DNA from: Wenzhouxiangella sp. XN24
GTDB lineage: Bacteria > Pseudomonadota > Gammaproteobacteria > Steroidobacterales > XN24
Assembly (NCBI RefSeq): GCF_011064545.1
Contig: NZ_JAAMFG010000028.1
Coordinates: forward strand, 186,001 to 250,000
Direction: 5' to 3'
Length of the DNA stretch: 64,000 bases
Shown here in pieces: positions 50,896 to 64,000 of this stretch. The notes beneath the pieces are model-generated. The model made no database searches. It was not told the DNA's origin and was given only the letters and a program-made list of their open reading frames with translations. Position 1 is the first letter of the stretch. Every line of letters begins with the position of its first letter. A program made the position numbers and the translations under genes.

Positions 50896-51920
50896 ACACG
50901 GGACTTTTGACCATCGACACCCACACCCACGTCCTGCCGCCCGGCTGGCCCGACCTGCAGGCACGCTACGGCTACGGCGGCTGGGTGCAGCTCGCGGAGC
51001 ACGGCCCGGGCTGCGCGCACATGCTCAAGGACGGCAAGCTGTTCCGCGAGGTGCAGTCCAATCTCTGGGACCCGGACCGGCGCCTGGCCGAATGCCATGA
51101 CAGCGGCGTCCACGTCCAGGTGCTGTCCACGGTGCCAATCATGTTCAGCTACTGGGCGAAGCCGACAGATGCACTGGACCTCTCGGGGCTCCTCAACGAC
51201 CACGTCGCGAGCCTCGTGGCCGCACATCCGCAGCGTTTCGTGGGACTCGGCACCGTGCCCATGCAGGACGCGGATCTCGCGATTCGCGAGCTGGAGCGCT
51301 GCATGCAGGAGCTCGGACTCGCCGGCATCGAGATCGGCACCCATGTCAACGGCATGAATCTCGACCATCCCGACCTTTTCCCGGTTTTCGAGGCCGCGCG
51401 CGACCTCGGCGCCGCGGTGTTCGTCCACCCGTGGGAGATGCTCGGCCGGGACCGGATGTCCAAGTACTGGCTGCCATGGCTGGTCGGCATGCCCGCGGAA
51501 ACCTCGCTGTCGATCTGCTCGATGATCTTCGGTGGCGTGTTCGAGCGCTTGCCCGGACTGCGGGTCCTGTTCGCCCACGGCGGCGGCGCCTTTCCCGCGA
51601 CCCTCGGACGCATCGAACACGGCTTTCGCGTGCGCCCCGACCTGGTCGCGGTGGATAACGAGCGCAACCCGCGCGACTATGTGGGCAGGTTCTACGTCGA
51701 TTCGCTGGTGCACGATCCGGACATGCTGCGTTTCATGATCCGCCTGCTGGGCGCCGAGCGAATCGCCCTCGGCAGCGACTACCCGTTTCCGCTCGGGGAA
51801 ACGGTGCCCGGGGAGATGATCGCGCGGATGGACGACCTGTCGGCCGAGACCCGCGCCCGCCTGCTGGCCGGCACGGCACTGGAGTGGCTGGGCCTCGATG
51901 CGGCCCGGTTCCGCGCATGA
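50892..51920 (+). CDS. 2-amino-3-carboxymuconate-6-semialdehyde decarboxylase (ACMSD)
   Basis: This is a 342-residue amidohydrolase-superfamily decarboxylase. The zinc ligands are visible as the HTH pair (His11, His13 in TIDTHTHVLPPG), a third His in FVHPWEMLG and Asp in GSDYPFPLGE; the catalytic His is in FAHGGGAFP. It diverts ACMS away from quinolinate/NAD synthesis into 2-aminomuconate semialdehyde, so this operon is catabolic. The start is GTG at 50892, overlapping the dioxygenase stop by 4 bases. Confidence 0.95.
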   Translation: MNTGLLTIDTHTHVLPPGWPDLQARYGYGGWVQLAEHGPGCAHMLKDGKLFREVQSNLWDPDRRLAECHDSGVHVQVLSTVPIMFSYWAKPTDALDLSGLLNDHVASLVAAHPQRFVGLGTVPMQDADLAIRELERCMQELGLAGIEIGTHVNGMNLDHPDLFPVFEAARDLGAAVFVHPWEMLGRDRMSKYWLPWLVGMPAETSLSICSMIFGGVFERLPGLRVLFAHGGGAFPATLGRIEHGFRVRPDLVAVDNERNPRDYVGRFYVDSLVHDPDMLRFMIRLLGAERIALGSDYPFPLGETVPGEMIARMDDLSAETRARLLAGTALEWLGLDAARFRA

Positions 51921-53167
51921 ACGCCGCACGACTCGATGCGCTCGATCCACTGGCCGCCTTCCGCGACCAGTTCCATATCCCCCGCCACGAAGGCGAGGAC
52001 TGCATCTACCTGTGCGGCAATTCACTCGGCCTCCAGCCCAAGAACGCGGCGCGCTACGTTGAAGAAGAGTTGCAGGCCTGGCGTGAGCTCGGCGTCGAGG
52101 GCCATTTCCGGGGACGCCGGCCCTGGAAGGACTACACCGATCACTTCGCGGCGCCGCTCGCGCAGCTCACGGGCGCGCACGAAAGCGAGGTCGTCTGCAT
52201 GAACAGCCTGACCGTCAACCTGCACCTGTTGATGGCCAGCTTCTTCCGCCCCTCCGCAGGGCGTTACAAGCTCCTGATCGAGCGCTCGGCCTTCCCGTCC
52301 GATCGCTATGCGGCGGTATCGCAGCTGCGCTTTCACGGGCTCGATCCCGAGGACGCCCTGGTCGAGGTCGGGCCGGCCCCCGGCGAGCCCCATGTCCGAA
52401 CCGAGGAACTCGTGGCGGCGATCCGCACCGCCGGAGATTCGCTGGCCCTGGCGCTGCTGCCCGGCGTGCAGTATCTCTCGGGCGAGGCATTCGATATCGG
52501 CGCATTGACCGAGGAGGCGCATGCGGTGGGCGCGCTCGCCGGCTGGGACCTCGCCCATGCCATCGGCAACGTGCCCCTGGACCTGCACGACGCGAACGCC
52601 GATTTCGCGGCCTGGTGCAGCTACAAGTACCTCAACGGGGGTCCCGGCACGGTGGCGGGCGCTTTCGTCCATGCGCGCTACGGCGACGACCCCACCCTGA
52701 ATCGCCTGGCGGGCTGGTGGGGACACGACAAGGCGACGCGCTTTCGCATGGATCCGGACTTCGTGCCGATCCCGGGCGCGGAAGGATGGCAGCTGTCCAA
52801 CCCCCCTGTGATCGCGATGGCGCCGCTCCTCGCGTCCCTGGAACTGTTCACGGCCGCCGGCCCGTCCCTGCTGCGAGAGAAGTCACTGGCGCTGACGGTG
52901 CTGCTGGAAGACCGCCTCGACGAGCACCTCGGCTCCGCCGTCGAGATCATCACGCCCCGTGAACCGGCGCGCCGCGGCGCCCAGCTCTCCCTCCGCCTGC
53001 GTGCGGGCACGGCCGCCGGGCGCAAGGCATTCGCTCGCCTCGGCGCAGCGGGCATCGTCTGCGACTGGCGGGAACCGGACGTGATCCGCGTGGCGCCTGT
53101 ACCGCTCTACAACCGCTACAGCGACGTCGAACGTTTCGTCGCGGTGCTGGCGGACGCATTGCGGTGA
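51917..53167 (+). CDS. kynU: Kynureninase
   Basis: This is a 416-residue fold-type I PLP enzyme hydrolysing (3-hydroxy)kynurenine to (3-hydroxy)anthranilate and alanine. The PLP lysine is Lys237 in AWCSYKYLNGGPG; YLCGNSLGLQP and GWDLAHAIGNVPL are family hallmarks. The ATG overlaps the ACMSD stop (ATGA) and its stop overlaps the GTG of the monooxygenase gene. The alanine released could link to the AlaA aminotransferase made elsewhere in the window. Confidence 0.96.
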   Translation: MNAARLDALDPLAAFRDQFHIPRHEGEDCIYLCGNSLGLQPKNAARYVEEELQAWRELGVEGHFRGRRPWKDYTDHFAAPLAQLTGAHESEVVCMNSLTVNLHLLMASFFRPSAGRYKLLIERSAFPSDRYAAVSQLRFHGLDPEDALVEVGPAPGEPHVRTEELVAAIRTAGDSLALALLPGVQYLSGEAFDIGALTEEAHAVGALAGWDLAHAIGNVPLDLHDANADFAAWCSYKYLNGGPGTVAGAFVHARYGDDPTLNRLAGWWGHDKATRFRMDPDFVPIPGAEGWQLSNPPVIAMAPLLASLELFTAAGPSLLREKSLALTVLLEDRLDEHLGSAVEIITPREPARRGAQLSLRLRAGTAAGRKAFARLGAAGIVCDWREPDVIRVAPVPLYNRYSDVERFVAVLADALR

Positions 53168-54552
53168 GCCGGGCCGTCACGCTCATCGGCGCGGGACTCG
53201 GCGGCGCACTGGCCGCCATCTTCCTGGCACGTCGCGGCCGTGAAGTGACGATCTACGAGCAGCGTCCCGACCTGCGGCGGGTGGCGCTGCCTGCCGGTCG
53301 CTCCATCAACCTGGCGCTGGCGAACCGGGGCCTGAAGGCCCTCCGGGCGGCCGGCCTCGAGACCGCCGTCGCGGAACTGTTGACCGAGATGCGCGGCCGC
53401 ATGGTGCACCCGGTCGAAGGAGCGCTCGACTTCCAGCCCTACGGTCAACGGGCGCACGAGGTCATCTACTCCGTCTCGCGGCCGGGACTCAACGCCCTGC
53501 TGCTGGAGGCGGCGGAACGCGCCGGCGTGCGCATCCGTTTCGGCATGCGCTGCATGGCGGTGGATTTCGACACGGACACGCTCGAGTTCGAAGACGAAAC
53601 GAGCGGCACCCGGGAGCAGGTCAGGCTGACGCCGTGCATCGGCGCCGACGGCGCCGGCTCGATGTTGCGCAAGGCCCTGGCGAACCGGCCCGGCTACGAA
53701 AGCCGCGAAGACATGCTCTCGCACGGCTACAAGGAGCTCAGCATCCTGGCCGATGCGCGGGGCGCCCCGCGCATGGATCCGGGCGCACTGCATATCTGGC
53801 CGCGCGGGGGACACATGCTGATCGCCCTGCCGAACCGGGACAACACCTTCACGGTCACCCTGTTCCTCGCGCAGAGCGGCGAACCGTCGTTCGCCAGCCT
53901 CGGCACCAAGGAGGCCGTGCGCCGCTTCTTCTCCGACGAGTTCCCGGATGCCGCAGCGCTGATCGACGAGCTGGAGGACAGCTTCCTGGCCAACCCGACC
54001 GGCACGCTCGGCACCGTGCGCTGCTCCCCGTGGCACCTCGAGGACCGGGCGCTGCTGCTCGGCGACGCCGCCCATGCCATCGTGCCCTTCCATGGCCAGG
54101 GCATGAACTGCGCCTTCGAGGACGCGCTGGAACTCGATCGCTGTTTCGGCTCCGTTGAAGACGCAGGCTCCGCAGACGATGCTCGCGCCGCGGCCTTCCG
54201 CATGTTCTATGCGCGACGTAAACCCAATGCGGACGCCATCGCGGACATGGCGCTGGAGAACTACGTCGAGATGCGGGACTCGGTCCGGGATCCCGGGTTC
54301 CTGTTACGGCAGGCGGTCGCCTTCGAACTGGAACGACGCCATCCGGATCGCTTTGCCCGGCGCTACGGCCTCGTCATGTTTCGCGACGATGTGCCCTATG
54401 CCGAAGCGCAGCGGCGGGGACGGATCCAGGAGACGCTGCTCGTCGAGTTGACCGCGGGTCTCGATAATGCCGCGGCCGTCGACTATGATCGGGCCGGAAA
54501 ACTGATTGCTGCGCGCCTCGATCCCTTGCCGGAACTCGACAAACCAGGCTGA
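53164..54552 (+). CDS. kmo: Kynurenine 3-monooxygenase
   Basis: This 462-residue FAD aromatic hydroxylase converts kynurenine to 3-hydroxykynurenine with NADPH. GAGLGGALAAIFLARRG is the FAD dinucleotide fold, IGADGAGS the DG motif, and LLLGDAAHAIVPFHGQGMNCAFED the GD motif. RSINLALANRGLKAL is a KMO signature. The C-terminal helix is shorter and less hydrophobic than in eukaryotic outer-mitochondrial forms, so the enzyme is likely soluble. It ends the coupled run that began at 47715. Confidence 0.96.
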   Translation: MSRAVTLIGAGLGGALAAIFLARRGREVTIYEQRPDLRRVALPAGRSINLALANRGLKALRAAGLETAVAELLTEMRGRMVHPVEGALDFQPYGQRAHEVIYSVSRPGLNALLLEAAERAGVRIRFGMRCMAVDFDTDTLEFEDETSGTREQVRLTPCIGADGAGSMLRKALANRPGYESREDMLSHGYKELSILADARGAPRMDPGALHIWPRGGHMLIALPNRDNTFTVTLFLAQSGEPSFASLGTKEAVRRFFSDEFPDAAALIDELEDSFLANPTGTLGTVRCSPWHLEDRALLLGDAAHAIVPFHGQGMNCAFEDALELDRCFGSVEDAGSADDARAAAFRMFYARRKPNADAIADMALENYVEMRDSVRDPGFLLRQAVAFELERRHPDRFARRYGLVMFRDDVPYAEAQRRGRIQETLLVELTAGLDNAAAVDYDRAGKLIAARLDPLPELDKPG

Positions 54553-54575: not shown

Positions 54576-56339
54576 ATGCCAGCGCCGACATTCTCCCGCC
54601 TGACCCTCTTCGAGCGCTTTTTGCAGCTGTTCACCTCGCTGCGCCCCGGCGAGGGACGCACCGTGTTTCTCATGCTGGCGCAGGTCTTTCTCCTGCTGCA
54701 CGGCTATTACCTCATCAAGCTCGTGCGCGATACGCTGATCCTCGTCGAAGGTTCGGCCGAGGTGCGCTCCTACGCCAACGGCGCAATTGCCGTGACGCTG
54801 ATTTTCCTGGTCCCGCTGTACAAGCTGTTATTCGATTACCTCAGGCGCGGCGGCGACAAGTCGGTCGTCTTGCGCTGGGTCGGGGGATTCTTCGCGTCCA
54901 ACCTGCTGATCTTCGCCTTCCTCTTCTGGCTGGGCATCCCGGTGGCGGTACCGTTTTTCATCTGGGTGGGGGTATACAGCGTCATGGTGGTCGCGCAGTT
55001 CTGGGCGTTTGCCGCCGACCTGCTGAACATCAAGACCGGGCAGCGGCTGTTCGCCCTCATCATGGTCGGCGCGGCGCTCGGGGCGTTGACGGGCAGCCAG
55101 GTGGCGGGCCGGCTCTACGAGGTGGTCGGCGTGACGAACCTCATGCTGCTTTCGGCCGCCATGCTGGTCTGCGTGCTGCTGCTCAGCCGGGTCGCCGAGC
55201 GTGCCGTCCCCGAAGGCTCGCGTGCAGCCGCAGCAGAGGAAGCGCCCGAGGCCGGGAGCTCGTTTGCCAGGGTGCTCGGCGGTTTCAGCACCGTGTTGCA
55301 AAGCAGCTACCTGTTCCGGATCGCGATATTCGTGCTGCTGCTCAACCTCGTGAACAGCAACGGCACGTATATTCTCGCGGCCTTCCTCAGCGATCATGCA
55401 GCGCAGCTGGTCGCCGCGAGCACGGCCGGCTTGACGACAGGCACCGTCATCTCGAAATTCTATGGCAATTTCTACGCCACCCTGACCGCGCTGCAGATCC
55501 TCGTCCAGCTGTTCCTGGTGTCACGCATTTTTCGCTGGTTCGGCGTGCGCGGCGCCATCCTGATCCTGCCGGCCGTCATGCTGCTGAACTACGGCCTCAT
55601 CCTGTTTTTCCCGGTCTTCGCGCTCGTGCGGGTATTGATGATCATCGAGATGACCACCAACTACTCGATCCAGAACACGACCAATCACACTCTTTACCTG
55701 CCGGTGACGCGCGAAGAGAAGTACGTCGGCAAGACCACCATCGACACGTTCTTCGTGCGCTTCGGCGACCTGCTGCAGGCGATGATGGTGTTTCTCGTGG
55801 CGCAGGTGCTCGGACTGGAGATCGGCTGGATCATCGGCATCAACCTCTGCCTGGCGGCGGTGCTTTTCGCCCTGGGCAATGCCATCGGGCGCCGTCATCA
55901 CGGCGAGATCCGGCACAACCTGGCCAACATGCCACCGGTCATCCAGGCGCCCCTGCCCGACGTCTACGTGCCCGCGGGGCAGATGCTGGTGTTCAGCGTC
56001 CCGGACAGGGCCTTCATGGACCCTGATCCGGGCGACACGCTGCGTTACGAAGCGAAATCGGCCGACGGCAGTCCGCTGCCGGCCTGGATCCGTTTCGACC
56101 GGCACAACCAGACGTTCACGCTGCAGCCGCCGCAGGATACGGCGGGAGAGCGGCGCGTGGTCCTGACGGCCACGGACTTCGAGGGGCTCAGCGTGCACGC
56201 CGAATTCGGCATCGAGTATGGGCCCGACCCGGTCCCCCGCTTCAGCGCAATCTCTGCAGCTGCGTCGCCCGGGTCACCAGTGCCTCCAGTTGGCGCGGAT
56301 GGAGATACGCCGATAACGGCGCCACATTCTGGGCAGTAA
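54576..56339 (+). CDS. ATP/ADP-translocase-like (Npt/MFS) transporter with C-terminal cadherin/Ig-like domain
   Basis: This is a 587-residue protein. Residues about 28-440 form some 11-12 membrane helices, with the NPT-like stretch HGYYLIKLVRDTLILVEG and NTTNHTLYLPVTREEKYVGK, seen in Npt1/Npt2-related proteins outside obligate parasites. Residues about 460-548 have the pattern of a cadherin-like/putative Ig (CADG) domain: DPDPGDTLRYEAKSADG, LPAWIRFDRHNQTF, VVLTATDFEGLS. A Pro/Ser-rich tail of about 35 residues follows. The substrate is unknown. It lies 23 bases after kmo, so co-transcription is likely, and its last 98 bases overlap the convergent phosphatase gene. Confidence 0.8.
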   Translation: MPAPTFSRLTLFERFLQLFTSLRPGEGRTVFLMLAQVFLLLHGYYLIKLVRDTLILVEGSAEVRSYANGAIAVTLIFLVPLYKLLFDYLRRGGDKSVVLRWVGGFFASNLLIFAFLFWLGIPVAVPFFIWVGVYSVMVVAQFWAFAADLLNIKTGQRLFALIMVGAALGALTGSQVAGRLYEVVGVTNLMLLSAAMLVCVLLLSRVAERAVPEGSRAAAAEEAPEAGSSFARVLGGFSTVLQSSYLFRIAIFVLLLNLVNSNGTYILAAFLSDHAAQLVAASTAGLTTGTVISKFYGNFYATLTALQILVQLFLVSRIFRWFGVRGAILILPAVMLLNYGLILFFPVFALVRVLMIIEMTTNYSIQNTTNHTLYLPVTREEKYVGKTTIDTFFVRFGDLLQAMMVFLVAQVLGLEIGWIIGINLCLAAVLFALGNAIGRRHHGEIRHNLANMPPVIQAPLPDVYVPAGQMLVFSVPDRAFMDPDPGDTLRYEAKSADGSPLPAWIRFDRHNQTFTLQPPQDTAGERRVVLTATDFEGLSVHAEFGIEYGPDPVPRFSAISAAASPGSPVPPVGADGDTPITAPHSGQ

Positions 56340-58023
56340 TCGTCTCGAGCGCCGCGCCCATCTGCGGCGTCAGCGTCAGCTCGGAATTACGCAACATCGC
56401 CCGGACATCGCTCGCCACGCCGAAGGCCTCCGACTGGTCGGTCAGCCAGAGTCGCCAGTCTTCATCGTAGCGCAGGGTGCCCAGGTCATGGACCGCATTC
56501 AGGATAAGCACGTCGAAGGCACTCATCAGCTGATACTGCCCGGCCAGGTCGCACGCGCCGGTGAAGGGAATCTGCTGCGCCTGGCGCTGCCGTTCGGAGA
56601 ACGATCCCGGAATCCACAAACGCAGTGAGCCACGCGCATCGCCGATCTCTCGCTCCACGGTCACGGGCACCATGCCCAGTTCCAGCAGGCGATCGACCCG
56701 GTAAGCAGCGATCTCGTAGCCGAAACGTTCGGCCTGCTCGTCGCCCCGTCGCCACCTGCGCGATTCCAGCCCCGGGGCGGTATCGACCGTGTTGAACACC
56801 GCGTCGAGGCGGCGCCCGTCATGCTCCAGCACGACGCGCTGCACCTCCGCGTCGCCAGCCGCGTCGACCTCGGTCACGTCCGCCGTAAGCAGGAAAGCCT
56901 CGATCTCTGCGTCGCTCATGCCGTAAGGACGATCCCATTCACGGGGCGGAGCCGTCTCTACCTCGGCGTAGCCCTCGCCCGCGTACCAGGCGCGCACCGT
57001 GCCGTCCTCGAGCACCAGGGCCGAGGGGCGGCCTTGATAGGCCGAGACGTTCATGCCGGTATCGACGCGCAGCACGTGACCGTCCAGTCGGCTTGTGATC
57101 CTGCGGCCGCGGGTCGGCGTATGGCCGACCGCAACCCGGGCGGCGCCGAATTGTTCGAGCACGCGCTTGGTGGGCTCGGTCTCCACATAGGCGTGGCAAA
57201 GCGAATTGCCGCGGTACCAGAGCGGTCCATCCGGGATGAAAGGCAGGCCTTCCGTGGCCGCGGTGATGGCATCGCCCGCCGCCCGCACTTCCGGCGCAGC
57301 GTCCTCGCCGAGTGCGGCGGCGCGCGCAATGATCATCCTCTGGCCGTCGTCATCACTCACGATGCCCGCGTCGAGCAGGGTGTGCCAGCCCTGTGCGAAT
57401 CGGCGGATATCGCTGCGCGCACGTTCATTGAGCGTGTCCAGCGTAAGCCGGTCCAGCAGCGGCGAGACGCCGCCGTGGATGAACAGGGTGTCGTTGACGA
57501 CGATGGCGACCGGCAGGTCCAGCAGCCAGGCGCCGTACTCGCCGTCCGGCGCCAGCGCCGCGCGCCGCTCGAAAAAGCCGGGCGGAAACTCGCCCGCCTG
57601 CTCCGCGCCGAACTGGGCATAATCGCCCAGGCTGACGTAGCGCAGGTCCCCGGCGAGATTCATCGCCTCGTGATTGCCGTGAATGACATGCACATCGCCG
57701 CCGGCGGCCGCGGCTTCCTCGTCCAGGCGCATCAGCAGGTCCATCACCTGCTTGCCGTAGTCGCCGCGATCCAGCAGGTCCCCGAGCGACACGAGATGCG
57801 CTTCCCCGCCGCTCCAGCGCAGCTCGGCATCCACCAGGCCCGTGCCCTGCAACAGGGTGACCAGCTCGTCATAGGCGCCATGAACATCGCCGACGACGAC
57901 CACCCGGTCGACGCCCTCGAAGCGGTAGTCTGCGGCCGAGAGCGCTTGTGCGCCCGGCAACAGGAACAGCAGGAGCAGCCAGGAGGCCTGGCGTATCTTC
58001 TCTTGGATGACGTGCAACATCAT
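56242..58023 (-). CDS. Secreted metallophosphoesterase fused to a kinase-like (probably inactive) C-terminal domain
   Basis: This is a 593-residue protein with a signal peptide (about 1-30, ending ALSA before ADYRF). Residues about 38-350 are a calcineurin-type phosphoesterase: GDVHG 45-49, GDLLDRG 81-87, GNHE 116-119, His183 in FIHGG, and GHTP 300-303. Residues about 372-560 look like the Fam20/HipA/PI-kinase fold: the conserved YEIAAYRVDRLLELGMVPVT (Glu437), GSLRLWI, and WRLWLTDQSEAF with Asp529. The ATP-lysine position reads VFN and the catalytic DRxxxN position reads VHDLGT, so this half looks like a pseudokinase. It overlaps the upstream gene by 4 bases. Confidence 0.75.
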   Translation of the reverse strand: MMLHVIQEKIRQASWLLLLFLLPGAQALSAADYRFEGVDRVVVVGDVHGAYDELVTLLQGTGLVDAELRWSGGEAHLVSLGDLLDRGDYGKQVMDLLMRLDEEAAAAGGDVHVIHGNHEAMNLAGDLRYVSLGDYAQFGAEQAGEFPPGFFERRAALAPDGEYGAWLLDLPVAIVVNDTLFIHGGVSPLLDRLTLDTLNERARSDIRRFAQGWHTLLDAGIVSDDDGQRMIIARAAALGEDAAPEVRAAGDAITAATEGLPFIPDGPLWYRGNSLCHAYVETEPTKRVLEQFGAARVAVGHTPTRGRRITSRLDGHVLRVDTGMNVSAYQGRPSALVLEDGTVRAWYAGEGYAEVETAPPREWDRPYGMSDAEIEAFLLTADVTEVDAAGDAEVQRVVLEHDGRRLDAVFNTVDTAPGLESRRWRRGDEQAERFGYEIAAYRVDRLLELGMVPVTVEREIGDARGSLRLWIPGSFSERQRQAQQIPFTGACDLAGQYQLMSAFDVLILNAVHDLGTLRYDEDWRLWLTDQSEAFGVASDVRAMLRNSELTLTPQMGAALETITAQNVAPLSAYLHPRQLEALVTRATQLQRLR

Positions 58024-58964
58024 TGCCCTCCCACGGCTTGATCCTCCGCCACGACGGTGGTGAACAGGCCGAGGCTGATGTATCTCTCGCAGACGAACTC
58101 GGCATAGCGCGCGGAAAAGAAGCTGCCGACGGAAAACACCCGTCCCCCGCGCACGAATTTTTCCTCCCGCCCGGGCAGCAGGGTGCGGACTGCTTCCACC
58201 TGCGCGTCGCTCTGCGGCACGATCAGGACTTCATGCATCGCCACCCCCGCATCGTCGCCCGCTGTGTACCTGGCCAGCATGCCGTCCACCTCTTCCAGCG
58301 CCACGGATTCCTGCCATGCAACCTGCGCGTCGGACTCCACCAGCGCCTGCAGCACGTCACGCAAATCAGCCACCTGCTTCGCAGGCGGATTGAGGTTCAA
58401 GTAGTCCGTAATGGCCTTGCGCAGGCCGATCATGCCGCGCTGCGCGCCGTCACCGGCTACGTCGGGCATCTCCAGGCGCCACTCGCGCGCAAAGTGGCGG
58501 ATGATCTCCGTCTCGCGCTCGTCCACGTGGCCGTCCACCGAGGCGAGTTCTTGCAGCACGCGCAGGATCTGCGTGGCGCCCCTGGGCTGGACAAGGCGCT
58601 TGATCAGGTCGGCCGACTCCTTGCGCTCCAGGTTGAGCGCGCGCAGGAACAGGCTGCGAAAACCGCGCTGGCGGAACTCCGCCACCCACAGCCCGCTACC
58701 GATGAGCACGAATATCACCGCCGTGACGATGCCGATCGTGGTCTTGGTCGCGGCCGCCGGGTTGGGATTGATCAGCAGGAACATGATCAGGAACGGGATA
58801 CCGTTGAAAAGGCCCAGCAGTGCGGCGGCGATGGACACGCTCTCCGCGACTTCCCGGACCATGCGCCGTTTCCACAACTTGTTGATGATCAGGTAGTTGG
58901 TGACCAGGGTCACGACGATCCCGATCGCCACCAGGAACTCGACGAAGGTCAGGAAGAAATTCAC
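58020..58964 (-). CDS. Three-helix inner-membrane protein with TerB-like domain
   Basis: This is a 314-residue protein with three predicted membrane helices at about 5-27, 43-66 and 75-95. A soluble region with a TerB/DjlA-N-like pattern follows at about 132-210 (ILRVLQELASVDGHVDERETEIIRHFA), a helical domain that can bind metal at its acidic DGHVDERE turn. The last 70 residues (SVGSFFSARYAEFVCERYISLG) weakly recall a SPOR-like alpha/beta repeat. I do not recognise the full-length family. Its ATG overlaps the stop of the upstream kinase-like gene and its stop overlaps the phosphatase start, so the three are translated as a unit. Confidence 0.75.
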   Translation of the reverse strand: MNFFLTFVEFLVAIGIVVTLVTNYLIINKLWKRRMVREVAESVSIAAALLGLFNGIPFLIMFLLINPNPAAATKTTIGIVTAVIFVLIGSGLWVAEFRQRGFRSLFLRALNLERKESADLIKRLVQPRGATQILRVLQELASVDGHVDERETEIIRHFAREWRLEMPDVAGDGAQRGMIGLRKAITDYLNLNPPAKQVADLRDVLQALVESDAQVAWQESVALEEVDGMLARYTAGDDAGVAMHEVLIVPQSDAQVEAVRTLLPGREEKFVRGGRVFSVGSFFSARYAEFVCERYISLGLFTTVVAEDQAVGGQ

Positions 58965-59995
58965 TGCCGGGCGACCGCCAGGCAGGCGAGTCCGAGCGCC
59001 TCTGCGGAATCTTCGAACGTCCCGATCCGCCCCTCGTCCACGGCCTCCAGCAAGTCATCGATGCGCCGTTGCACCTGGCGGATTTCCGCCCTGGTGAGAC
59101 CGAACTGTATGCGTCCCCGCCGGCTACGCACGCCGCGGGTGTTCGCGAGATTCTTGCCGAACGTGGCGACGGGCGTCAGTACGCCGTCCTCGAGATGAAA
59201 CTCCGCGACCACCCCAAGGGCCTGTTCAAGGTCGTCGCGAGTGATGCTGCGCAACCGGTCGATCGTTTTCTGCGGCAGCCTGTCCACCAGCAAGGGGCTC
59301 CACGTATCGCCCCGGTCGCTGATGCGGCTATCGAAGGCGACGTCGTTATCGACGGCGAACAGGCGCGGGTCGTCCGGGTGAGTCGAGACCAGCAGGTTGC
59401 CGTAGTTGGCGTCCTTGTGGTCGATCAGGTGAGTCAGGATATTCAGGTTGCCCCAGTGGCGTGCATAACGCGGGTCCGTCGCGAAGCGCGCCGCATCCCA
59501 TGGGTCATTGGGGGACACCTCGGAAAGCCAGTAGGACAGCAGGAACAGCACCGAGTCGGTGGTCAGGATGGTCGCCGGGGCCTCGTTGCGTAAGCTCCGG
59601 TATTCATCTCGCGTGAGTGCGCGCATCACCACGGGCGGCACCACGTATTCACACTCGTCGAGGAACAGCGACTGCAGGCGGTACGTCGCCAGCGCATAGC
59701 GCGGCTCGTTGTTGAAGCCGTCCCCCGGCGGACTCACGGGCTTCCACAACACTTCCATGCCGGGTTCGCCGTCCGGCCCGGCGAGCACGACGCGCGCCGA
59801 GCGATCGCCTTCCACGCTGGGCCTGGCCTGCTTGGCGTCGAGAATTTCCAGCGGCCCGTGCAGGCGGTTCTCTATGTACGCCACCGGGAACAGGATATTC
59901 GGCCCGGTCTGCGCCTGGACCGCCTGCGGCGCAAACGCCTGGAGCAGCGCCGCGAAGACCAGGACGAAAACCGATCGGCTGATTATTGATCGCAT
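58961..59995 (-). CDS. Secreted Fam20/HipA-like kinase candidate
   Basis: This is a 344-residue protein with a Sec signal peptide (about 1-28, cleavage AVQA before QTG). Motifs in order suggest an atypical kinase: Lys85 in EVLWKPV, Glu97 in NNEPRYALATYRLQSLFL, the catalytic-loop-like LIDHKDANYGNLL (191-202, Asp192, Asp195, Asn200) and the metal-binding-like FAVDNDVAF (213-221, Asp216). This order parallels Fam20C (K, E, DRH, LDNG) and HipA/PI-kinase enzymes. That it phosphorylates a periplasmic protein or envelope sugar is inference. GAGGAACACGG precedes the ATG. No database confirmation was possible. Confidence 0.65.
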   Translation of the reverse strand: MRSIISRSVFVLVFAALLQAFAPQAVQAQTGPNILFPVAYIENRLHGPLEILDAKQARPSVEGDRSARVVLAGPDGEPGMEVLWKPVSPPGDGFNNEPRYALATYRLQSLFLDECEYVVPPVVMRALTRDEYRSLRNEAPATILTTDSVLFLLSYWLSEVSPNDPWDAARFATDPRYARHWGNLNILTHLIDHKDANYGNLLVSTHPDDPRLFAVDNDVAFDSRISDRGDTWSPLLVDRLPQKTIDRLRSITRDDLEQALGVVAEFHLEDGVLTPVATFGKNLANTRGVRSRRGRIQFGLTRAEIRQVQRRIDDLLEAVDEGRIGTFEDSAEALGLACLAVARQ

Positions 59996-60035
59996 TTTTC
60001 CGTGTTCCTCAACCTATTGCCCGCCCGGACGACGA

Positions 60036-61550
60036 TCAGCGCAGCTTGTTCATCCAGATGCTGTGGCGCTTGAAGCGCCGCACCGTGCCGTCCTCGCCAG
60101 GCTCGAAATAGACCGTCTCGCCCAGTGAGTCATCGTCGTTGCGCACGCGCCGGAAAGTGTGCTCGCCGACATGCCGTAAGCGCACCATGTCCTTGGCCGG
60201 ATCTCGGCTCCCCAGGTAGAGCAGCGCCAGGCCATCCTGCCATGGCACGATGGCCACCTGGCCCCAGATGTTGTCGTAAACCCCGGTATAGCGCAGCCAT
60301 TCCGCGTTGCGTGCGGGCGCCTCGTCCGGTGCGTCCAGCGCGCTTTCGATCGCGGGAGCGATAAGGTCGAAAGCCTTGGCGGCATAGAAGCCGGGCTCGG
60401 AGCCGATGGTGTTGGTCAGCACGATGGCGCCGAGCTTCGTTTTCGGCTCGAGCCGGAACTCGGTGTAGTACCCGGGACACCCGCCGCCATGGCGCGCGAA
60501 GGTGCGCTCCCCTTCGCGCCGGACGCTGAAACCGAGCCCCCAGGTCGTTTCCCAGTCGGGATCGACCCAGTGCACGCGTTGCATCTCGCGCAGGGTGGAG
60601 GCGCGCAACAACTCGTCCCCGCCGTCGCCCAACAGGCGGAACTGCCACATGGCGAACTTCGCCATGTCGTTGACGCTGGAGGCGAACCCCGCGGCGGGGG
60701 CGATGCCCCGGGTCTGGAACGGCGCGACGACTTCCCGCATCCCGTCCCGCTTCAGCGCGGTGTGGCCGACGGCCATGCGCCCGCCACGCAGTTCGATCGG
60801 GATGTCGGTATACGTGTCGCTCATTCCGAGCGGATCGAGCAGGTGTTCGCGTATGTAGGGATCGAAAGCCTGGCCGGACGTGGCCACCACGATCTCGCCG
60901 ACCAGGCTCAGGCCCAGGTTGGAGTACTGGAAGTAGCGCGCAGACGGATAAAGCGTCTGCTGCGCGCCGAGCCGGGCGCGAATCTCGTCGCTTGTCGGGA
61001 ACGGATAGTCCGGATCGGTCCAGTAGGGGAAGTCGGACTCGCGGGGCAGCCCGGCGGAATGCGTCAGCAGGCCGCGAATGGTGACCGGCTCATCCGCCGG
61101 GTGCGCATCCTCGATGTTGAACCAGTCCAGGTGCTGCGCGACCGGATCGTCCAGGCGCAGCAGGCCGGCGTCACGTTGCTGCATCAGCGCCACGCTGGTG
61201 AACAGCTTCGAAATCGAGCAGATGCTGTAGAGCGTATCGGGCGTCGCGGGGGCGCCGGTCGCCGGATTGGCCTCGCCGAAGGCGCCGCTGGCCACCAGTT
61301 CCTGGTCGTGAACGATGCCGTAGGAGACGCCGGGCACCCGACTGGTGCTGGCCTGGTACTCGACCCATTCGGCCCACAGCTGGACTGCACCAGAGACACG
61401 GGGATCATCCGCGAGCCGGAGCGACGGGGCCGAGGCGGCCGCCACGCCGGCCAGCCCCATGGTGGCGAGCATCAATGCACACCGCACGGCATGATGGGTG
61501 AGGCGCTTACCGTGATTCATGTTCGTCCCAGAAATCCCGGCGGTCCCCAT
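60036..61550 (-). CDS. Secreted serine hydrolase of the beta-lactamase/PBP4-like family
   Basis: This is a 504-residue class C beta-lactamase-fold protein. A signal peptide ends near residue 40 (VAAASA before PSLRL). The active site shows SxxK in CSISKLF, YxN in QYSNLGLSL and an HGGG third motif in ARHGGGCPGY in place of KTG. A C-terminal lipocalin-like tail (about 400-504) ends the protein. Enzymes of this type include D-aminopeptidases and esterases, and substrate cannot be predicted. The ATG at 61550 has GAGGAGC upstream; the ATG at 61520 would give a shorter signal peptide. It lies only 40 bases upstream of the kinase-like gene on the same strand. Confidence 0.88.
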   Translation of the reverse strand: MGTAGISGTNMNHGKRLTHHAVRCALMLATMGLAGVAAASAPSLRLADDPRVSGAVQLWAEWVEYQASTSRVPGVSYGIVHDQELVASGAFGEANPATGAPATPDTLYSICSISKLFTSVALMQQRDAGLLRLDDPVAQHLDWFNIEDAHPADEPVTIRGLLTHSAGLPRESDFPYWTDPDYPFPTSDEIRARLGAQQTLYPSARYFQYSNLGLSLVGEIVVATSGQAFDPYIREHLLDPLGMSDTYTDIPIELRGGRMAVGHTALKRDGMREVVAPFQTRGIAPAAGFASSVNDMAKFAMWQFRLLGDGGDELLRASTLREMQRVHWVDPDWETTWGLGFSVRREGERTFARHGGGCPGYYTEFRLEPKTKLGAIVLTNTIGSEPGFYAAKAFDLIAPAIESALDAPDEAPARNAEWLRYTGVYDNIWGQVAIVPWQDGLALLYLGSRDPAKDMVRLRHVGEHTFRRVRNDDDSLGETVYFEPGEDGTVRRFKRHSIWMNKLR

Positions 61551-62488: not shown

Positions 62489-64000
62489 TCACTCGCAGCG
62501 GTAGTCGCCGCTGGCTTCCTTGCGGCAGTGCGCCGGCACCCCGAAGCGATCCCAGTAGTCGGCAATGCCGGTCTTGCGCAGGAATGCGGGGAAGGCCGGT
62601 GAGGTCCAGACGTCCGGGTACCAGCGAGTGCCCAAGACTTCACCGAGGAACAGCGGATCGTTGGTCGTGGGGTTATCTGCGAACACGCCGAGTCCCCGCT
62701 CGATATCGCCCATGGCCACGAGCGTCATCGGAACCAACGCGTTGATGCGTCCCGTTGTCCCCTCGAGATAGTCATCGATGATCGTGCGGGCCTGTTCCTG
62801 CGCCTGCACGTCGCCGGTACGCGCCGCCGCGAAGACTGCGGTGGCCTCCGGCGCGAGGTCGCCACCAAAAATCCTGTGGACTTCTTCCATGTGCGCCTGC
62901 GCCGCCGCTCGGTCACCACGTTGAAGTGCAATCCGCGACATTGCCATTCCCGTCCAGCGCAGCCCCGCTTCACGGGCCCGCTCGGTCATCCGTTCCGCAG
63001 TCGCCAGGTCGCCGGCAGAGGCATAGAGCCGGGCACGCCAGCCCAACGCGTTCGGCAACAGCGGATCGAGCATCAGGACATGGTCGAGCTCGCGTTCGCA
63101 AAGCTCGATGGCGCCGAGTGGGCAATGGAACAATGCACCCCAGAAGAGCGTAGTGGAATCGTTCGGATCGATCGCGCGCGCCTTCTGCAGCGCGGCCGCA
63201 GAGTCCGCATAGCGTCGGTCTCCCCAGTGCAGTATCCCCAGCACGGCATGCGGTTCGGCCAGTCCGGGATCCAGGTCCAGCGCCGCTTGCACCTGCCTGG
63301 CCGCCTCGCCAGTCAACGCGTCGTGACGATCCGGTGCGGCCACGTTGGACCACAGGTAGTACAGCGTCGCGAGGCGCGAATGTGCGCGGGCATAGCCGGG
63401 ATCGAGACGCAGCGCCTGCTGCGCAGCAGCGATGGCGTCTTCGTAGCGTTCGGCCTGGCGACGGTTGAACACCTCGGTGGCGCGCAGGTAGAGCGCGTAG
63501 GCCTCGGGATTCGTGGTTCCCGCGTTGACCAGCCGTTCGTCCTGGCCGGTATTGAGGGCCACCTTCAGCTCGCGAGTGACCTCGCGGGCGATGCGCTCCT
63601 GCAACGCGAAGATATCGGCGTCGGTGCCGTCGTAGGTTTCCGACCACAGGTGGAAGCCGTCCTCGCTGCGGATCAGCTGCGCGGTGACGCGCAGCCGCTC
63701 GCCCTGCTTGCGCACCGAACCCTCCAGGATATGGGCGACGCCCAGCGTCGCGCCGATGTTGCGCAGGTCCTCGTTGCGACCCTTGAAATAAAACGCCGAG
63801 GTGCGGCCCGCCACGCGCAGGCCCGGCACGCGCACCAGCGCATTCAGGATCTCCTCGGCGATGCCGTCGCCGAAGTATTCCTGGTCTCCATCCGGACTCA
63901 GGTCGGCGAATGCCAGCACGGCAATCGACTGCGGGGAAGCGGCGGATGCGGACGCGTGCTCGGGCTCCGGCGCGGGCGCGAGCACGCCATCACCAGGGAC
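62489..64000 (-). CDS. FlgO-like/TPR protein, C-terminal part (partial)
   Basis: The frame is open to the right edge, so the N-terminus is missing; about 503 residues are visible. The first complete domain (about residues 25-150) is FlgO/adenylate-cyclase-N-like: SIAVLAFADLSPDGDQEYFGDGIAEEI and VRKQGERLRVTAQLIRSEDG, a wedge-fold found after a transmembrane helix. TPR-like repeats follow to about 430, and the C-terminus ends with SGDYRCE. Such proteins usually begin with an OmpR-type winged helix (CadC-like regulators) or a cyclase domain; which applies here lies beyond the window. An internal GTG at 63985 is not a likely start. Confidence 0.82.
   Translation of the reverse strand, partial: VPGDGVLAPAPEPEHASASAASPQSIAVLAFADLSPDGDQEYFGDGIAEEILNALVRVPGLRVAGRTSAFYFKGRNEDLRNIGATLGVAHILEGSVRKQGERLRVTAQLIRSEDGFHLWSETYDGTDADIFALQERIAREVTRELKVALNTGQDERLVNAGTTNPEAYALYLRATEVFNRRQAERYEDAIAAAQQALRLDPGYARAHSRLATLYYLWSNVAAPDRHDALTGEAARQVQAALDLDPGLAEPHAVLGILHWGDRRYADSAAALQKARAIDPNDSTTLFWGALFHCPLGAIELCERELDHVLMLDPLLPNALGWRARLYASAGDLATAERMTERAREAGLRWTGMAMSRIALQRGDRAAAQAHMEEVHRIFGGDLAPEATAVFAAARTGDVQAQEQARTIIDDYLEGTTGRINALVPMTLVAMGDIERGLGVFADNPTTNDPLFLGEVLGTRWYPDVWTSPAFPAFLRKTGIADYWDRFGVPAHCRKEASGDYRCE

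Follow-up and report, generated by a model that had tools for sequence, protein, structure and literature searches.

The bacterial periplasm is usually considered free of ATP, and a close parallel for the gene set described here is presumably the eukaryotic endoplasmic reticulum, where an ATP/ADP exchanger feeds lumenal kinases; we take the logic to be the same and the carrier family to be unrelated, the present set being placed in the bacterial envelope instead. PMC9758233 names FAM20 among the kinase clusters that are specific to eukaryotes or to Metazoa. For the NTT (TLC) family, which includes the ATP/ADP carriers of Chlamydia and plastids, four charged residues of AtNTT1 are essential for ATP/ADP transport; PMC4256464 ties K527 to the transport of tri- rather than diphosphates and states that NTT substrates are not predictable from sequence. 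According to PMC5381601, the parasite NTTs characterised so far take up nucleotides, little of the diversity of the family has been tested, and the functions of NTT proteins of free-living bacteria are called unknown or untested.

In a 64,000-nt stretch of the Wenzhouxiangella sp. XN24 genome (the window, by which we mean this whole stretch), a secreted kinase-fold protein (A), a secreted phosphatase (C) and an NTT-family membrane protein (E) are encoded at one locus. Computation gives us their folds, the conservation of their motifs, signal peptides read from the sequence and repeated co-localisation of the genes in two phyla. We propose that the three may form an extracytoplasmic phosphorylation module of kinase A and phosphatase C, with a phosphoryl donor supplied by the module's own nucleotide exchanger E, and give this reading a probability of about 0.45. 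Our search of the open-access literature, with subscription papers and preprints outside its scope, found no description of the E-A-C gene set.

Layout of the locus

Four minus-strand ORFs, D, A, B and C, lie where the initial annotation had placed them (Table 1), and the ORF calls bear out its coordinates, the 4-base overlaps of A with B (GTGA, 58961-58964) and of B with C (ATGA, 58020-58023), and the gap of 40 bases between D and A. All four appear to be genuine: Pfam matches support D and C, and relatives in other genomes support A and B. The Sec signal peptides that had been assigned to A and C agree with the Sec-type N-termini that we see on inspection of both. However, the conserved unit reaches past the annotated positions and takes in E, an NTT-family gene that converges on C and shares 98 bases with it where their 3' ends overlap.

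Table 1. Positions in the window of the genes, domains and residues discussed in the text
Feature	Positions	Strand	Remarks
A, secreted kinase-fold protein, 344 aa	58961..59995	-	signal peptide to ~residue 29, kinase domain ~33-330
A Asp195, putative catalytic Asp, motif HKDANYGN	59411..59413	-	D in 48/48 A proteins
A Asn200, putative metal-binding Asn	59396..59398	-	N in 48/48 A proteins
A Asp216, putative metal-binding Asp (DFG-Asp equivalent, DNDVAF)	59348..59350	-	D in 48/48 A proteins
A Lys85, candidate beta3 lysine	59741..59743	-	Lys at position 83 in most relatives
B, three-segment membrane protein with weak TerB-like region, 314 aa	58020..58964	-	TerB 22.2 bits, cut-off 24.4
C, secreted PPP-type metallophosphatase with C-terminal pseudokinase-like domain, 593 aa	56242..58023	-	PF00149 1e-14; Z 34.0 to 1v73
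C phosphatase domain, ~residues 36-355	56959..57918	-	11 checked PPP positions identical in 14/14
C pseudokinase-like domain, ~residues 360-593, related to A	56245..56946	-	TIGR03843 in 12/14 members; hhalign to A
D, secreted beta-lactamase-fold serine hydrolase, 504 aa	60036..61550	-	PF00144 3.6e-66
E, NTT-family (TLC, ADP/ATP carrier) membrane protein with C-terminal Ig-like He_PIG domain, 587 aa	54576..56339	+	PF03219 42.5 bits
E He_PIG Ig-like domain, residues 453-547	55932..56216	+	PF05345 6.3e-11

Kinase-fold protein, phosphatase and carrier-family protein

The AF2 model of A (mean pLDDT 87.7) has its best VIA-align match in Hydra Fam20 (5xoo; Z 17.6, rmsd 3.2, 246 aligned residues, 19% identity); the Fam20 and PI4KII chains together span Z 17.6 to 15.4, with PI4KII at 16.3 and below, and PI4KIIalpha is the top Foldseek match (E 2.8e-7). 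The PI3_PI4_kinase model PF00454 weakly matches 22 of the 27 members of the A alignment at E<=0.1 (best 5.7e-5), window A not being among them. Unlike PI4KII, A is secreted, and a sequence search against solved structures returned no significant match for it, PI kinases included. The Pfam Fam20C model PF06702 matched only one of the 27 members (E 0.064); by this model A does not belong to the Fam20 family proper. Of the folds that the initial annotation had put forward for comparison, Fam20 and the PI kinases are recovered, and the HipA-like fold ranks lower: CtkA, which we take to be HipA-like, aligns with the model at Z 12.7, below Fam20. SelO does not appear among the fold matches listed for the model, a list that does not exclude it.

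The putative catalytic and metal-binding residues of A, assigned by motif and not by coordinates, are invariant (Table 1), and we take the spacing of its catalytic Asp, metal ligand and DN-x-x-F motif to be similar to that of Fam20C; the residue five positions after the catalytic Asp, Asn in A, is presumably Glu in Fam20C. A candidate beta3 lysine is found at position 83 in 41 of the 47 proteins read there and at position 85 in six of 47, window A having Leu83 with Lys85, and the residue at position 97, where the alphaC Glu is expected, is E in 19, V in 12, R in 11 and Q in 6 of the 48 proteins. By a crude script rule (a hydrophobic stretch followed by an A-x-A-type site), which is indicative only since some A and C rows begin at a contig edge, a signal peptide is present in 24 of the 27 A rows (the misses are L029, which is cut by a contig end, L034 and L035) and in 13 of the 14 C rows. 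Judged from the model, A is a protein of the Fam20/PI4KII-type kinase fold that keeps the C-lobe motif residues, with a predicted kinase activity, in agreement with its earlier designation as a kinase candidate. It resembles the animal Fam20 kinases in being secreted, in its fold and in its association with a pseudokinase relative; it differs from them in being bacterial, in that the pseudokinase-like domain is fused to a phosphatase, and in its gene linkage to an NTT-family protein.

That domain is found in C, which had been described as a phosphatase joined to a pseudokinase; we find the description supported for the phosphatase and, in the form of a pseudokinase-like domain, for the other half. 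The AF2 model of C (mean pLDDT 88.0) aligns with the Shewanella protein-tyrosine phosphatase 1v73 over 271 residues at 32% identity, and the 11 conserved PPP positions come from the motifs GDVHG, GDLLDRG and GNHE and two further His residues. The fold matches shown for full-length C cover the phosphatase half only, and the pseudokinase half rests on sequence profiles: the best TIGR03843 match to the C-terminal half of a C member has an E-value of 1.1e-8 (window C scores 24.8 bits against a cut-off of 172.4), and hhalign pairs the alignment of A with that of C at E 1.6e-5 and probability 79. In this half the catalytic Asp position holds D in none of the 14 proteins, the Asn position N in four, and the DFG-Asp position D in seven. 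By motif and fold C is a PPP phosphatase, and from the profiles its C-terminal half is a pseudokinase-like domain that is probably related to A; unlike phosphatases of the 1v73 type, which its phosphatase half resembles, Proteobacterial C carries this additional domain and has A and E as partners.

E scores above the PF03219 cut-off of 21 bits, 10 of the 12 members of its alignment match this model at E<=0.01, and its profile matches the ADP,ATP carrier 9j3n (E 3.5e-14). Unlike the NTT carriers of Chlamydia and plastids and the NTT-HEAT and NTT-HEAT-cNBD fusions of free-living bacteria, window E has a C-terminal He_PIG Ig-like domain, shared by 11 of the 12 aligned members, which hydropathy places on the cytoplasmic side, an unusual location for such a domain. 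The E of one Gemmatimonadota locus (L018) has by Pfam the NTT-HEAT-cNBD architecture described for free-living bacteria in PMC5381601; the term He_PIG was not found in that article. In AtNTT1 numbering (K155, E245, E385 and K527, of which K155 falls in an unaligned stretch), all 12 He_PIG-type, that is Proteobacterial, sequences read have S, G or A at the E245 position and D at the K527 position, and 11 of the 12 have D or E at the E385 position, where window E has T. The 24 long, Gemmatimonadota-type sequences, a set defined by a length rule that also admitted one He_PIG form whose ORF start was placed too far out (L032), have K at the K527 position in 23 of 24, D at the E385 position in all 23 read and D at the E245 position in 21 of 22 read. 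Window-type E thus departs, with two of the four residues replaced, from the charged pattern of NTT carriers with shown ATP/ADP exchange. E is the conserved membrane partner of A and C, one that the initial annotation had missed, and as an NTT-family protein it may transport ATP. The supply of ATP in the periplasm had been raised as an objection to a secreted kinase, and the membership of E in this family could answer it; the replacement of two AtNTT1-essential residues in Proteobacterial E weighs against that answer.

Gene neighbourhoods and their history

Four duplicates (L097, L099, L119 and L120) and, in G478, an edge fragment of 102 bases were set aside, which left 48 distinct A loci. E is present in 37 of them and C in 38, both in 32 and neither in five within the stretch examined; one of the five (L101) is on a 3.04-Mb contig with more than 9 kb on each side. 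In two other loci (L022 and L106), which extend for some 9 kb or more to either side, C is present and E is absent. The suggested association of A and C is therefore upheld. Since NTT relatives occur nearly everywhere in the order (249 of 296 genomes at 1e-5, and all eight A genomes tried, one with only a short piece), their presence in a genome is uninformative, and we used adjacency alone; the contrast for these adjacency counts is eight B neighbourhoods only, not random genes. Among the matches listed, C occurs without E, and E-C pairs occur without A, two of them in genomes of the same genus; the pair can thus do without A, and its two members need not occur together. The 20 regions inspected were hand-picked, some of them for holding C or E alone, and are not a random sample. 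In 21 of the 27 Gemmatimonadota loci A is accompanied by a response regulator (RR) and a histidine kinase (HK), the domains being confirmed by Pfam in one locus, and the same-strand order E-RR-HK-A-C is complete in 14 of the 27, 11 of the 14 being close relatives.

On the other hand, neither B nor D is a conserved partner of A; B is a local operon member and D a local neighbour. In B there are three hydrophobic segments, its TerB match falls slightly short of the Pfam cut-off, and its relatives occur in 11 of the 296 genomes, the own genome included. No A, C or E was found in eight neighbourhoods of B relatives (4.3 to 12 kb each; from the 10 other genomes) and no B relative in 26 A loci, and A abuts C without B in other genomes. 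The TerB-like protein, proposed as a membrane partner bridging A and C, hence drops out of the conserved unit, and of the predicted gene order only the A-C association survives. The hydrolase D, likewise included in the unit, belongs to a very large family and has a relative in only one of the 26 A loci. A role in anti-phage defence was also considered and rejected, as none of A, B, C, D and E has a PADLOC match at 0.01.

In the phylogenetic tree, window A groups with four Gemmatimonadota proteins (support 100/100), and a tree joining all 20 Proteobacterial A proteins is rejected (p-AU 0.002, for a group named after the tree was seen). Window A adjoins an E-C pair that two same-genus genomes have without A. 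Taken together, the tree and the congeners indicate that the kinase and the E-C pair probably came together at least twice.

Possible roles of the gene set

In the module that we propose, the NTT-family protein E would sit in the inner membrane and exchange a cytoplasmic phosphoryl donor with the periplasm, and we infer as the simplest direction ATP out and ADP in. The secreted Fam20/PI4KII-like A would use the donor to phosphorylate an extracytoplasmic substrate, which may be a protein, a glycan or a lipid, and the secreted PPP phosphatase C would take the phosphate off; in Proteobacteria, the pseudokinase-like domain of C could contact A, docking or regulating it as Fam20A does for Fam20C. 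In Gemmatimonadota, where an RR and an HK lie nearby and E has HEAT and cNMP-binding domains, control of the export step may come from within the cell. It counts against the proposal that Proteobacterial E no longer has the charged residues equivalent to E245 and K527, and that only 19 of 48 A proteins have the alphaC Glu.

The former observation bears on what E transports. Proteobacterial E may not be an ATP carrier, and may move another phosphorylated metabolite (a diphosphate, NAD or a nucleotide sugar) or act as a membrane sensor, with A and C as its secreted modifying or sensing partners and the linkage real. Such a role would suit the C-terminal HEAT/cNMP or Ig-like domains as well as the lost residues, and the poor predictability of NTT substrates (PMC4256464) and the little NTT diversity tested so far (PMC5381601) leave room for it; however, three of the four positions are still acidic or Lys in the Gemmatimonadota E beside the same kinase, and an active A would depend on a phosphoryl donor on its own side of the membrane, and we regard a non-ATP role as unlikely. 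A different question, compatible with the layout of the module, is whether the target of A is not a protein but a small molecule, a glycan or a lipid, the last being what PI4KII phosphorylates, or whether a group other than phosphate, for instance AMP, is transferred. This seems rather doubtful to us. C is nearest to PPP protein phosphatases, with a protein-tyrosine phosphatase as its best match, which slightly favours a protein substrate; even so, PI4KIIalpha ranks first in Foldseek, Fam20 and PI4KII chains lie within one range of Z in VIA-align, the alphaC Glu is not conserved, and, according to PMC7948968, Fam20B phosphorylates xylose and proteins with a kinase fold may transfer groups of other kinds.

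It is considerably less probable that the set serves nutrient scavenging, with C and A processing extracellular nucleotides or phosphate esters and E importing the product. Nucleotide import by characterised parasite NTTs (PMC5381601) sets a precedent, and C weakly matches dinucleotide hydrolase models (best member 6.6e-10, window C far below the cut-off); but A would then spend phosphoryl donor outside the cell, and the best alignments of C are with protein phosphatases. The arrangement first suggested, a three-part complex of A, B and C bridged by the TerB-like B, is very improbable: the 4-base overlaps of this genome, which argue for it, are set against the B neighbourhoods that contain no A, C or E and the genomes in which A adjoins C directly.

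Returning to the module of E, A and C, its fullest form would be a dedicated extracytoplasmic phosphorylation system in at least two phyla, in which an ATP-exporting NTT exchanger and a Fam20-like kinase act opposite a secreted PPP phosphatase, to which Proteobacteria would add a regulatory pseudokinase; such a system would give a role to a class of unexplained NTTs of free-living bacteria; we advance this form tentatively. A gene cluster that recurs in two distant groups of bacteria and ties a secreted kinase-like protein and a secreted phosphatase to a protein of the ATP/ADP-exchanger family suggests that phosphorylation outside the cytoplasm may take place in some bacteria. The E-A-C gene set makes it testable whether bacteria phosphorylate envelope components there, and with which donor, and it offers a gene-context lead for the NTT proteins of free-living bacteria.

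Organization of the locus

The initial annotation described a four-gene unit in which a secreted kinase candidate and a secreted phosphatase would share one compartment, with a TerB-like membrane protein between them. The four minus-strand genes, encoding a beta-lactamase-fold hydrolase (D), a secreted kinase-fold protein (A, 344 aa), a TerB-like membrane protein (B) and a PPP phosphatase with a pseudokinase-like domain (C, 593 aa), were confirmed in their positions, as were the overlaps GTGA (A/B) and ATGA (B/C) and the gap of 40 bases between the end of D and the start of A. A fifth gene on the plus strand had been left out, namely E (587 aa), which encodes an NTT (TLC, ADP/ATP carrier) family membrane protein and is convergent with C, their 3' ends overlapping by 98 bases. 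The Sec-type signal peptides proposed for A and C were likewise seen on inspection, and 24 of the 27 A rows and 13 of the 14 C rows passed a crude rule for them, some rows beginning at contig edges. B has three hydrophobic segments, and its TerB match (22.2 bits) falls just under the Pfam cut-off of 24.4.

Genes of the locus in the window
Gene	Position	Strand	Observation
D	60036-61550	minus	ORF
A	58961-59995	minus	ORF
B	58020-58964	minus	ORF; TerB match below cut-off
C	56242-58023	minus	ORF
E	54576-56339	plus	PF03219 match; C-terminal He_PIG Ig-like domain

Directly upstream of E (51884-54552) lie genes that, by look, resemble those of a kynureninase and a kynurenine monooxygenase. Of five related TPR-type proteins encoded in about 12 kb, one lies inside the window (62489-63985) and the other four just past its end (L012:398-10598; blastp).

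Folds and motifs of A, C and E

Searched alone against Pfam and NCBIfam, A gave no significant match; at E≤0.1, 22 of the 27 A alignment members, not including the window protein, match PF00454 (PI3/PI4 kinase), with 5.7e-5 as the best value. The AlphaFold2 model of A (input 27 sequences) has a mean pLDDT of 87.7, and PI4KII kinases come first in a Foldseek search of the PDB (E 2.8e-7). When the candidates supplied by Foldseek were re-examined with VIA-align, Hydra Fam20 ranked at the top (Z 17.6, rmsd 3.2, 246 residues, 19% identity), followed by further Fam20 and PI4KII chains (Z 16.9 to 15.4) and by CtkA (Z 12.7). The putative catalytic Asp195, Asn200 and Asp216 are kept in all 48 A proteins. 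Two features call for caution: of the 47 proteins read at position 83, 41 have the beta3 lysine there, the window protein having Leu83 and a lysine at 85, and the expected alphaC Glu position is E in just 19 of 48.

The phosphatase half of C aligns with a Shewanella cold-active protein-tyrosine phosphatase over 271 residues (Z 34.0), and none of the 11 PPP positions checked varies among the 14 alignment members. In their C-terminal half, 12 of these 14 match the PI3/4-kinase-like family TIGR03843 with a best value of 1.1e-8, under the TIGR03843 cut-off, and the half also aligns to the profile of A with a probability of 79 (hhalign E 1.6e-5). Because the catalytic Asp position is D in none of the 14, the Asn position N in four and the DFG-Asp position D in seven, this half is by motif a pseudokinase. 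The Gemmatimonadota C proteins examined (from loci L013, L014, L018 and L023) match the phosphatase part only.

E matches PF03219 (ATP/ADP carrier family) with 42.5 bits against a cut-off of 21, and a profile of it picks up two ADP,ATP carriers, 9j3n (E 3.5e-14) and the chloroplastic 9j3j (5.2e-10). The protein ends in the He_PIG Ig-like domain, and its C-terminal part matches alpha-dystroglycan chains in the profile search. A rough reading of the hydropathy scan gives about 12 membrane segments with both ends cytoplasmic. According to two papers, K155, E245, E385 and K527 of the Arabidopsis carrier AtNTT1 are important for transport (PMC10654386, PMC4256464), K527 being thought to matter for triphosphates, not diphosphates (PMC4256464). 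We placed these residues through the profile alignment, with a constant offset of 84 on the solved chain that fits all four. In He_PIG-type E proteins (Proteobacteria, including the window) S, G or A stands in place of E245; at E385, 11 of 12 read have D or E and the window has Thr; and at K527 all 12 read have D. In the long Gemmatimonadota type the corresponding residues are Asp (21/22 read), Asp (23/23) and Lys (23/24; the exception, L032, was misfiled by length). Judged by these residues, the long form is a plausible candidate for ATP/ADP exchange, and the window type is a divergent NTT member whose substrate may differ from ATP/ADP. NTT and NTT-HEAT-cNBD proteins have been reported in free-living bacteria, with function unknown, in a paper whose main text contains, by term search, no word starting 'kinase', 'periplasm' or 'export' (PMC5381601).

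Conservation and assembly of the gene set

A six-sequence A profile matched 94 stretches in a one-genome-per-species collection (84,980 species by its description). A relative is encoded in 26 of them, which come from Proteobacteria, Gemmatimonadota and a single Caldithrix bin. When whole genomes were searched, A turned up in 6 of 296 from the window's order, its own included, and in 24 of 298 from the phylum of a Gemmatimonadota genome. The 48 distinct loci compared are the window, one order relative, the 26 scan loci and 20 further loci from the phylum search; a 102-base edge fragment and four duplicates that had been fetched again were left out. E lies near A in 37 of the 48, C in 38, both in 32 and neither in five (L015, L025, L101, L102, L104), counts that tend to be low because contig ends cut many stretches; yet with about 9 kb or more on each side, L101 has neither partner, and L106 and L022 have C only. 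The Proteobacterial loci (n=20) have E in 14 and C in 18, the Gemmatimonadota loci (n=27) E in 23 and C in 20, and the Caldithrix locus neither; counting 11 close-relative Gemmatimonadota loci (L108-L118) once gives E 27/38 and C 28/38. The sole contrast for these counts comes from eight neighbourhoods of B relatives (4.3 to 12 kb), in which none of A, C or E occurs.

A response regulator (RR) and histidine kinase (HK) accompany A in 21 of the 27 Gemmatimonadota loci, and 14 of the 27, 11 of them close relatives, have the one-strand order E, RR, HK, A, C; L013, L014, L103 and L105 have the same set, but with A convergent to C. The domains of L018 were confirmed by Pfam, its E having an NTT-HEAT-cNMP architecture. 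In Proteobacteria A usually either stands in tandem with C, with E convergent, or is itself convergent with E, in which case C lies about 8 kb off.

Several other arrangements were seen nearby. One Gemmatimonadota genome (G422) has two A genes (L102, L104), with neither C nor E in either stretch. In L008, L010, L011 and L030 (Steroidobacteraceae-type; e.g. L030:3497-8591) two large genes lie between C and A, one starting with FRIFLSSPGDVAEERLIARRVIDRL or a close variant and the next containing GVTGHRDLVEDE, or near it, in L008, L011 and L030. In two other families (L045:12787-17268, L055:1958-6605) C has, within a few kb, a putative hydrolase marked by an HGRGRKP/HGRGFKP stretch and also a small membrane protein; by look, these are possibly another partner set for it. 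In three genomes of the window's family (L065, L067, L068) a B relative directly follows what, by look, resembles a polyamine-type ABC transporter set.

E and C also occur together without A. Both same-genus genomes examined lack A but have an E-C pair that is convergent and overlapping as in the window (identity 64-65% for E, 54-56% for C). Among the 21 E loci of the order with E-value <1e-80, in 20 genomes, at least 14 share a contig with a C no more than about 10 kb away; for six, no C is among the listed matches at that distance, and for one, the place of C is absent from the listing. C is also seen apart from E: among the regions examined, those around C in G003, G059, G009, G074, G067, G217, G194, G108, G016 and G087 lack a confident E. 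In G032 two convergent C-E pairs stand in tandem (L043:5884-12947), which suggests that the pair was copied as one block.

In a maximum-likelihood tree of the 48 A proteins, the window protein shares a group (100/100) with four proteins from Gemmatimonadota, the nearest at 56% identity, and a branch with support 97/92 separates the remaining 19 Proteobacterial proteins from all others. A constrained tree holding all 20 Proteobacterial proteins together was rejected (p-AU 0.002), the group having been named after the tree was seen and other rows having long branches. On the simplest reading, a Gemmatimonadota-like donor supplied A, a direction of transfer that we infer, and A settled beside a resident NTT-phosphatase pair, so that kinase and pair would have joined at least twice.

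A candidate extracytoplasmic phosphorylation cycle

The most economical account is a phosphorylation cycle outside the cytoplasm that has a donor supply of its own: E, in the inner membrane, would swap donor for product, A would phosphorylate and C would dephosphorylate. The pseudokinase half of C could act like Fam20A, which activates Fam20C in animals (PMC7948968). The donor identity, transport direction, kinase activity, substrate and A-C contact are all inferred here. What speaks most strongly against the ATP version is that Proteobacterial E has lost two key residues; against a strict three-part machine, it is the occurrence of E-C pairs without A and of C without E. A, C and E belong to known superfamilies, and searches of an open-access library listed no description of the gene set; nor can we name a bacterial counterpart of the system. 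If this account is right, the system would work like the eukaryotic secretory-pathway kinases.
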